Shown here piece after piece: positions 3,617-6,607 of a DNA stretch of 64,000 nucleotides. The stretch is from Chloroherpetonaceae bacterium (GTDB lineage: Bacteria; Bacteroidota; Chlorobiia; Chlorobiales; Thermochlorobacteraceae). The notes under the pieces are model-generated. The model was not told where the DNA came from. It made no database searches and worked only from the letters and a program-made list of their open reading frames with translations. A program made the position numbers and the translations under genes. The stretch covers positions 872,146-936,145 of the forward strand of contig JANRJQ010000010.1 of the NCBI GenBank assembly GCA_033763895.1, written 5' to 3'. Each line of letters opens with the position of its first letter. Position 1 is the first letter of the stretch.

Positions 3617-3744
3617 GTTCGAAGGGCAAGTTGGTTTTTTTGAAAATGCTTATAAAGTTACACTTTGAAATGAATTCGAGGCAGAAAAAAAGCAATTGCT
3701 AAGGGCATTCACTTTTGCGGCAATCTCAAACTTGGTGCAAAAAC

Positions 3745-3775
3745 TTGGTAAATGAAAAGATGCGCCGTATATTTG
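3745..3775 (+). promoter_or_regulatory. promoter for the metK-ahcY leader RNA
   Basis: TTG at 3745-3747 is followed after 20 nt by TATATTTG at 3768-3775, which fits the Bacteroidota/Chlorobiota consensus TTG-N(17-23)-TAnnTTTG. Transcription would begin near 3781, exactly where the structured leader starts. This is an inference from the consensus; no start site has been mapped. Confidence 0.7.
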
Positions 3776-3780
3776 CAACC

Positions 3781-3872
3781 GCTTTTCGTTCCCAATATGT
3801 TTGGACACGGCGAAAAGTCGAAGCTGAAAGGCTTTCGCTGGCAGAAATGCTTAGGAAATGCAACTGTGTCTG
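3781..3872 (+). promoter_or_regulatory. candidate SAM-Chlorobi riboswitch upstream of metK-ahcY
   Basis: Three helices can be drawn by eye. P1 pairs CTTTTCG 3782-3788 with CGAAAAG 3811-3817. Hairpin P2 pairs 3819-3824 with 3831-3837. An 8-bp helix pairs GGACACGG 3803-3810, which lies in the P1 loop, with CTGTGTCT 3864-3871, so the fold is an H-type pseudoknot. The SAM-Chlorobi motif is known only from Chlorobi and only upstream of metK-ahcY operons, which is the context here. Placement in that family is by context and architecture; I could not align to the published consensus. The leader ends in an intrinsic terminator at 3889-3913, so control by transcription attenuation in response to SAM is the likely mechanism. 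Confidence 0.65.
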
Positions 3873-3888
3873 AACAAATGTCATTCTT

Positions 3889-3913
3889 GCCTTTCCAAGT
3901 GGAAGGCTTTTTT
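3889..3913 (+). terminator. intrinsic terminator/attenuator in the metK leader
   Basis: GCCTTTCC (3889-3896), loop AAGT, then GGAAGGC (3901-3907, one bulge) followed by six T. It sits 17 nt after the pseudoknot and 82 nt before metK, the position expected of a riboswitch expression platform. No alternative antiterminator helix was worked out. Confidence 0.7.
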
Positions 3914-3995
3914 GTTTTAAATGCTGCGGCTAAAAGGATCCTTTTTTGGAGTTCGTTTTTTTGTCAATTCGTTCATTTAATAAAACCGGTGCACT

Positions 3996-5195
3996 ATGGC
4001 ACGATATCTATTTACATCGGAATCCGTTTCCGAAGGGCATCCCGATAAGGTTGCCGATCAAATTTCTGACTCCGTTCTTGATGCGATTTTGGAGCAGGAT
4101 AAAGATGCAAGAGTTGCTTGCGAAACCTTTGTCACAACCGGCCAAGTGGTTGTTGGTGGAGAAATTACCACAAAGGCTTATGTGGAATTCTCTGATCTTA
4201 TCCGTGGGGTAATTAAGGATATTGGTTACACCAAGGGTGAATACATGTTCGAATCCAAATCGTGCGGTATTCTTTCAGCCATTCACTCACAATCGCCGGA
4301 TATAAACCGTGGGGTTGACCGCAAAGGTGCAAAGGATAAATACGAATCTGTTGGCGCCGGAGACCAAGGCATGATGTTTGGCTTTGCTTGCAAAGAAACA
4401 CCTGAATTAATGCCTGCACCGGTTAGCTTTGCACATAAGCTTGTCAAAAAATTGGCCGATCTTCGAAAAGCAGGGAAGGATATGACCTATCTTCGCCCCG
4501 ATGCCAAAAGCCAAGTCACCCTTGAATACGATAACAACAAAGTCATCCGCGTTGATACTATTGTGGTATCAACCCAACATGACCCTGAACCCGCCGGCGT
4601 CACTGAACGTGAATTTCAAAAGCGGATTAAGGATGATATTATCGCCAAAGTCATTACGCCAACGCTTCCAAGCTACTTGCTTGACCGCAATACCAAGTTT
4701 TTTATCAACCCAACCGGTCGTTTCGAAATTGGCGGACCTCACGGCGATACGGGCTTAACCGGACGAAAGATTATTGTTGATACCTATGGCGGTGCAGCCC
4801 CGCACGGTGGTGGTGCTTTCTCGGGCAAAGACCCCTCGAAGGTTGACCGCTCAGCCGCGTATGCTGCCCGTTACATTGCGAAGAATGTGGTTTCTTCTGG
4901 CCTTGCCGAGCGTTGCACCGTTCAGGTGTCGTATGCTATCGGTATTGCAAAACCTGTGTCGATTTATGTCAATACACACAGCACCGGAATGAAAGGAATC
5001 ACTGATGCCGAGCTTCAAGCCAAGGTTGAAAAACTCTTTGATCTTCGCCCGCTCGCGATTATTGAAACCTTCGGCCTCACCAAGCCAAAAGGGTGGTCAT
5101 ATAAGCAAACCGCTGCTTACGGGCACTTCGGCCGCGACATCTTCCCTTGGGAAAAAGTTGACCGCGCCAAAGATTTGCAACGCGCTTTCAAATAA
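3996..5195 (+). CDS. metK: S-adenosylmethionine synthetase
   Basis: Methionine adenosyltransferase makes S-adenosylmethionine from methionine and ATP, releasing phosphate and pyrophosphate, in the cytoplasm. The 399-residue length is normal. The N-terminus carries the conserved [18 protein letters not shown], with the substrate-binding GHPDK at residues 14-18, followed later by [12 protein letters not shown] and the glycine-rich [16 protein letters not shown] near residues 270-285, which are diagnostic. It is the first gene of a two-gene operon with ahcY, 42 nt upstream of it. Expression is likely controlled by the structured leader at 3781-3913. There is no obvious Shine-Dalgarno sequence, but the ATG coincides exactly with the conserved N-terminus. 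Confidence 0.98.
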
Positions 5196-5237: not shown

Positions 5238-6557
5238 ATGGCTACAACCGCAGAAGTCAAACGCTTACCGTTTAAGGTAAAAGATATTTCCCTTGGCGAT
5301 TGGGGAAGAAAAGAAATTCGCCTTGCCGAAGCTGAAATGCCCGGCCTGATGCAAATTCGTAAAGAATATGGCGCACAAAAGCCGCTCAAAGGCGCTCGCA
5401 TTGCCGGCTGCTTACACATGACCATTCAAACCGCCGTTTTAATCGAAACCTTGATTGAGCTCGGCGCAGAAGTCAGCTGGTCATCGTGCAATATCTTTTC
5501 AACGCAAGACCACGCCGCCGCAGCGATTGCCAAAGCCGGAATTCCGGTTTATGCGTGGAAGGGCATGAACGCCGAGGAATTTGATTGGTGTATTGAGCAA
5601 ACCCTTTTTGCCTTCAAAGATGGGCAACCGCTCAATATGATTTTAGACGATGGCGGCGATCTCACCAATATGGTGCTTGATAAATACCCCGAGCTTGTGG
5701 CCGGTATTCGCGGAATCTCCGAAGAAACCACCACCGGTGTACACCGCCTTTATGAACGCCAGCAACACGGAACGCTTCCGCTCCCGGCAATCAATATTAA
5801 CGATAGCGTAACGAAATCGAAATTTGATAACAAATACGGCTGCCGCGAATCATTGGTGGATGCCATTCGCCGTGGAACGGATTTGATGCTTGCCGGTAAA
5901 GTGGCGGTTGTTGCAGGCTTTGGTGATGTGGGCAAAGGCTCTGCGGAGTCGCTTAAAAATGCCAATGTGCGCGTCATCGTAACCGAAGCTGACCCAATTT
6001 GTGCGCTTCAAGCGGCAATGGAAGGCTATGAAGTTAAAAAGATGGAAACCGCCGTGAAGGAAGCCGACATTGTGGTGACCGCCACAGGAAACGAAGATAT
6101 CGTGACGGAAAAGCACTTCCGCTCAATGAAGGATAAAGCCATTGTCTGCAATATCGGCCATTTTGATACCGAAATTGATATGGCGTGGCTCAATAAAAAC
6201 TACGGCCATACCAAGATGGAAATTAAGCCGCAAGTGGACCTTTACAACATTGAAGGGAAGGATATCATTGTGCTCGCTGAAGGCCGTTTGGTGAACTTGG
6301 GCGTGGCGACCGGGCATCCGTCGTTCGTGATGTCGTGCTCCTTCTCCAACCAAGTGATTGCCCAAATGGAACTTTGGCAAAATAGCAAGAGCTATGAGAA
6401 CAAAGTGTATATGTTACCAAAGCACTTGGATGAAAAGGTTGCCCGCCTGCACCTTGAAAAGCTTGGCGTTGAACTCGAAGAGCTTTCTGAAAAGCAAGCC
6501 AAGTATATTGGCGTGAAACAAGAAGGCCCATTTAAGCCGGAGTATTATCGGTATTAA
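5238..6557 (+). CDS. ahcY: adenosylhomocysteinase
   Basis: S-adenosylhomocysteine hydrolase reversibly splits SAH into adenosine and homocysteine, removing the product that inhibits methyltransferases. The 439-residue protein has the NAD-binding Rossmann motif [15 protein letters not shown] near residues 222-236, the active-site region [24 protein letters not shown], and the canonical C-terminus KPEYYRY, which supplies the Lys and Tyr that close on NAD. It is the second gene of the metK operon and is followed by a strong terminator. Together the two genes make SAM and clear its by-product, which fits control by a SAM-sensing leader. Confidence 0.98.
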
Positions 6558-6583
6558 TTCTGCACCGAGCAAAATATAAAAAA

Positions 6584-6607
6584 GGCAGCGCGAGCTGCCT
6601 TTTTTTG
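6584..6607 (+). terminator. terminator after ahcY
   Basis: GGCAGC (6584-6589), GCGA tetraloop of GNRA type, GCTGCC (6594-6599), then a run of T. Confidence 0.9.

Follow-up and report, generated by a model that had tools for sequence, protein, structure and literature searches.

SAM-Chlorobi leaders upstream of metK-ahcY and metH probably control the methyl-recycling cycle through early termination of transcription

In the window, the 64,000-nt stretch of Chloroherpetonaceae DNA analyzed here, the metK-ahcY operon is preceded by a leader that, by sequence comparison, is a divergent member of the SAM-Chlorobi family (RF01724). Together with a second copy at metH, this leader probably controls the methyl-recycling cycle by ending transcription early. 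Our preferred reading, to which we assign a probability of roughly two in three, is a cis-acting transcription attenuator in which formation of a pseudoknot leads to termination and a methyl-cycle effector represses. In the hairpin state, helices P1 and P2 would be formed and the pseudoknot 3′ strand left free; RNA on or just 5′ of that strand would pair with the 5′ side of the terminator as an antiterminator, allowing read-through into metK-ahcY. In the pseudoknot state, GGACACGG would leave P2 and pair with the 3′ strand, disfavoring the antiterminator, so that the terminator would form and expression would fall. The effector, a member of the methionine–SAM–SAH–homocysteine cycle, would most likely bind the pseudoknot together with the loop CCAnTAnnT and thereby cause repression. 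We infer this polarity, with the pseudoknot as the off state, as well as the small-molecule nature and the identity of the effector.

All features of the leader lie on the forward strand. A promoter-like element, TTGGTA-17-TATATT, was read from the sequence at 3745–3773; an alternative reading is TTG-N22-TAnnTTTG of the Bacteroidetes/Chlorobi type (3745–3777, with TATATTTG at 3770–3777), and a TA-N2-TTT element occurs at the matching place in most relatives' leaders. Hairpin P1 (3782–3788/3811–3817; CTTTTCG with CGAAAAG, 7 bp), extendable by two U–G pairs (3789–3790/3809–3810), encloses the inner helix P2 (3792–3795/3801–3804; CCAA with UUGG) and an unpaired ACAC (3805–3808), and the P1/P2 hairpin (3782–3817) has a computed energy of −9.9 kcal/mol. 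The pseudoknot 5′ strand GGACACGG (3803–3810) shares bases with the 3′ arm of P2 and with the upper end of the extended P1. Its partner, CTGTGTCT (3864–3871; RNA CUGUGUCU), reads CCGTGTCC in most relatives, and the two form eight pairs in the window leader, two of them G–U. Directly 5′ of this partner lies the putative antiterminator 5′ strand GGAAATGCAA (3854–3863), which would pair with TTGCCTTTCC (3887–3896), a segment including the 5′ arm of the intrinsic terminator (3889–3913; 7-bp stem 3889–3895/3901–3907, loop of 5, then TTTTTT). The genes downstream are metK, encoding methionine adenosyltransferase (3996–5195; TIGR01034, 560 bits versus a cut-off of 309), and ahcY, encoding adenosylhomocysteinase (5238–6557; TIGR00936, 634 bits versus 498; both NCBIfam). 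A strong, bidirectional-looking terminator with a 12-bp stem and A and T flanks (6578–6605) ends the operon. A preceding sequence-only reading had placed P1, the 8-bp helix, the terminator and both genes exactly here, all directly legible in the sequence; it had overlooked the antiterminator and also P2, the helix in competition with the pseudoknot.

Scanned with Rfam at the gathering threshold, the window yielded tRNA only. RF01724 matched 3784–3845 at 23.7 bits (E = 0.019 over all 4,227 families), below its gathering value of 35 bits, which is a score cut-off and not a structural feature, and its alignment placed the distal pseudoknot part elsewhere than at 3864–3871. The covariance-model search proposed in the sequence-only reading therefore returned a sub-threshold match rather than none. 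On relatives' metK leaders, RF01724 scored 39–90 bits, with one other leader from the window's family, f1, missing at 30.8 bits and the remaining f1–f3 metK leaders at 39–53 bits. R3, a model derived from 33 relatives that included neither the window nor any metH leader, ranked the window site as the best match in its own genome (31.7 bits, E = 1.1e-5), with the metH leader second (E = 0.0024) and noise thereafter. By this window-free model, the window leader is homologous to undisputed members scoring 39–90 bits on RF01724, whereas its scores of 44.4 and 59.1 bits with models R1 and R2, which include it, are not independent evidence. The features of the family are also recognizable: a P1 and P2 hairpin with the conserved CCAnTAnnTnnGGACAC, a distal CCGUGUCC feature pairing with GGACACGG and present as CUGUGUCU at 3864–3871, and a position in the 5′ UTR of a Chlorobi metK-ahcY operon according to NCBIfam gene calls. 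Membership was thus settled by homologues and not by the Rfam score. The sub-threshold match, the homologues and the compensatory changes described below support what had been proposed from the window, namely a SAM-Chlorobi-type leader with P1, pseudoknot and attenuator before metK-ahcY.

R1 matched 88 of 98 Chlorobiales genomes. The other ten comprised seven with no detectable metK, one with a partial metK and two with the motif deleted; the leader occurs in nearly every Chlorobiales genome with an assembled metK upstream region. Both deletions (L215 in G037:C4 and L216 in G078:C140) are found in related Chlorobiaceae, where the whole motif upstream of metK has been lost with the same end points, a clean shared natural deletion that retains the promoter and the downstream part. 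Among 395 genomes of the phylum, only three weak matches fell outside Chlorobiales (L180–L182); with no recognizable methionine gene downstream and no convincing core, these were taken as chance. Presence of the FMO protein in all genomes of family f1 (as a fragment only in G008) shows this family to be a phototrophic lineage of Chlorobiales.

A second copy of the leader was identified in all nine f1 genomes, in each case directly upstream of metH. The metH gene of the window's genome was assigned by TIGR02082 (1,740 bits) and the other eight by similarity. Although built without metH leaders, R3 recovered all nine at 21–43 bits, and a terminator lies between motif and metH in every one. No copy was detected by pattern or model in the metH leaders examined outside f1. 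The motif had been described in the sequence-only reading as restricted to metK-ahcY operons; the location held, while the restriction did not. The metH copies in all nine f1 genomes are new here. None reaches the Rfam cut-off, which would explain why we found no report of them in the papers searched. Like the window site, they are invisible at that cut-off, and the metH half of the regulon is therefore absent from current annotation.

The helices were assessed by comparison of 69 sequences. Double-sided changes affected five of the seven P1 pairs and two of the four P2 pairs, and the covariation score over these seven changing pairs was reached by 0 of 500 shuffles. P2 takes the forms CCAU/AUGG, CCAA/UUGG (the window and a second family) and CCGA/UCGG (the metH leader of the window's genome). 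For the pseudoknot, 97.8% of cells were paired; four of its eight pairs are invariant, three vary one-sidedly through G–U, two of which also break (in six sequences), and both partners are altered in the remaining one. This last change occurs in the metH leader L178, with GGACGC/GCGUCC versus GGACAC/GUGUCC in its sisters, and the antiterminator strand there reads GGACGC versus GACAC, all three strands being altered together. Such a three-strand change supports both of the mutually exclusive pairings. Covariation of the pseudoknot comes from this one genome and from extension pairs in metH leaders, its eight pairs being nearly invariant; the compensatory changes anticipated in the sequence-only reading were found, with only one in the 8-bp helix itself. 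The metH leader of the window's genome pairs over 10 bp in its pseudoknot (CUUCGGACAC/GUGUCUGAAG), compared with CUAUGGACAC/GUGUCCAUAG in a sister genus. An extension to 12 bp, considered as a general feature, was unsupported over all sequences and is limited to some metH leaders. Taken alone, the 8-bp helix of the window is not significant (205 of 2,000 dinucleotide shuffles, or 10%, contain one) and the z-score for folding of the entire leader is −1.9; the significance of the pseudoknot comes from homologues, not from the window sequence. P2 and the pseudoknot share G3803–G3804, and the 10-bp versions share the entire 3′ side of P2. With these shared bases the two exclude each other, though both are conserved, pointing to a switch rather than a static fold. 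The spacing of the pseudoknot strands is about 60 nt and variable (52–66 nt), and conservation of the loop CCAnTAnnT is strong even apart from its base pairs.

The 5′ side of the terminator can, in most leaders, pair with the pseudoknot 3′ strand together with the nucleotides immediately before it, comparison thereby establishing a predicted antiterminator in most homologues. Examples are L005 (GAUAGAAAAG/CUUUUCUAUC), L010 (UUUCGUG/CACGAAA) and L178 (GAAAGGC-AA-GCGUC/GACGC-AA-GCCUUUC). In L178, the antiterminator strand has changed in the same sense as the pseudoknot 5′ strand, and the 3′ strand keeps both partners; this supports a chain in which a formed pseudoknot would preclude the antiterminator and the terminator would then form. 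The window antiterminator (3854–3863 with 3887–3896) had a pairing probability of about 0.96 in a transcript ending at 3899. Duplex energies were better than those of shuffled sequence (P < 0.05) for 13 of the 21 leaders from outside Chlorobiaceae (families f1–f3), and in 71% of Chlorobiaceae leaders. The window leader counts among the 13 (9 of 300 shuffles), its result being weaker with a longer downstream stretch (42 of 500). By the same comparison, no significant antiterminator was obtained for the metK leaders of genus g3, for L032 or for the metH leader of the window's genome. Comparable terminators are present in nearly all f1–f3 leaders outside genus g3, and those of Chlorobiaceae are weak. 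The g3 metK leaders L003, L007 and L009 keep the motif with neither a significant antiterminator nor a compact terminator, and their output mechanism may be different. In the window, the overlap of antiterminator and pseudoknot amounts to just three pairs, and the antiterminator still formed in a secondary-structure calculation that reserved both strands of the pseudoknot; exclusivity of the two in this copy would follow from the relatives and from geometry. In Chlorobiaceae leaders such as L011, L023 and L025, the antiterminator loop additionally contains a small, seemingly conserved hairpin whose pairs change (GUCA/UGAC, UUUC/GAAA and UGUC/GACA); it lies 3′ of the pseudoknot 3′ strand and 5′ of the antiterminator 3′ strand.

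The leader had also been called SAM-responsive, a label that our survey leaves unsupported. The sole experiment located, an in-line probing of several SAM-Chlorobi constructs that the discovery paper describes as preliminary, revealed neither SAM nor SAH binding (PMC2864571), and in a later survey SAM figures as effector by prediction only (PMC3766115). Models of the SAM-I, SAM-II, SAM/SAH and SAH riboswitches gave no match in 3640–4000 at E values up to 10; a further search with RF01057 (SAH riboswitch) also returned nothing, but it was just as silent in control genomes and carries no weight. Canonical SAM-I (RF00162) exceeded its cut-off in 10 of the 14 genomes examined, the window's included, and precedes metY in all five genomes inspected, with metX next in line in two of them, one from f2 and the other from f4. 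At locus L218 of the window's genome (G000:C7, 3875–6065), a short DoxX/HvfX-like ORF lies between SAM-I and metY. SAM-I also stands at metY in L219–L222, and at metX too in other families. SAM-I at metY would put homocysteine synthesis under SAM-I and the recycling enzymes metK, ahcY and metH under the SAM-Chlorobi leader. This division of genes is compatible with a different effector but is no proof of one, and it narrows the SAM-Chlorobi ligand question.

Two ligand alternatives share the mechanism of the preferred reading, and our confidence in either is not exclusive of it. That the same attenuator responds to a different member of the methyl cycle (SAH, homocysteine, methionine or adenosine, for example) is a serious contender, if still short of probable. 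The regulon consists of exactly the recycling enzymes, with the homocysteine-making metY(-metX) under SAM-I in the same genomes; however, the preliminary probing gave a negative result for SAH as well (PMC2864571), and an activating ligand of the SAH type would require the reversed polarity. We tentatively suggest that SAM-Chlorobi could constitute a riboswitch class of its own with a non-SAM methyl-cycle ligand, its exchange of P2, pseudoknot and antiterminator coordinating metK, ahcY and metH alongside SAM-I at metY. Repression by SAM is classic for metK and metH, and SAM itself could instead act on the attenuator in ordinary feedback repression, as with SAM-I. The inferred polarity, repression through pseudoknot formation, agrees with this, and known SAM-binding RNAs include H-type pseudoknots such as the SAM/SAH riboswitch (PMC7367207). 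The negative probing with SAM and the presence of another SAM sensor, canonical SAM-I at metY, in the same genomes make this effector possible but doubtful.

Binding of a protein or trans-acting RNA to the conserved loop, setting the P2/pseudoknot balance in place of a metabolite, would agree with the negative probing results (PMC2864571) and with loop conservation beyond base pairing; we regard it as rather unlikely. A DNA operator for a transcription factor is highly improbable: CCAT...ATGG and P1 do form inverted repeats immediately downstream of the promoter, but the many G–U pairs in P1 and pseudoknot fit RNA, the third strand lies at a distance that varies between leaders, and the terminator and antiterminator strands covary as expected for RNA. 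Leader-peptide attenuation with the conserved ATGGACACGG as start codon can practically be dismissed, since, despite an ATG there in most relatives and some open frames of 35–80 codons, the window has TTG with a stop after eight codons and the pseudoknot strand spacing is spread over three frames (23/14/23), none of them conserved, a frame test that rules it out as the conserved mechanism.

SAM-Chlorobi has counted among the orphan riboswitch candidates since 2010. For the attenuator reading that we prefer, the metH regulon, the strand-exchange model and the natural three-strand variant replace 'probably cis-regulatory' with mechanistic predictions open to specific and inexpensive testing. The discovery paper of Weinberg et al. 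(2010) describes the motif from operons of metK and ahcY (PMC2864571). In the sections of the published descriptions available to us, we found neither the metH association nor the competition among P2, pseudoknot and antiterminator nor the metH-type 10-bp pseudoknots. The window leader resembles SAM-Chlorobi in its element order, its core CCAnTAnnTnnGGACACGG with distal GUGUC, the P1/P2 topology of the Rfam model and its position before metK-ahcY in Chlorobiales. It differs in the flipped P2 pair (CCAA/UUGG), the two G–U pairs in the pseudoknot and the presence of two small hairpins in place of the single one of Chlorobiaceae. A methyl-cycle gene context is shared with the SAM/SAH, SAM-II and SAH riboswitches; the SAM/SAH riboswitch, itself an H-type pseudoknot, acts on translation (PMC10516623), whereas the window leader carries an intrinsic terminator. 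SAM-I is likewise a riboswitch of methionine-pathway genes and stands before metY(-metX) in the same genomes, but it is unrelated in sequence and fold.
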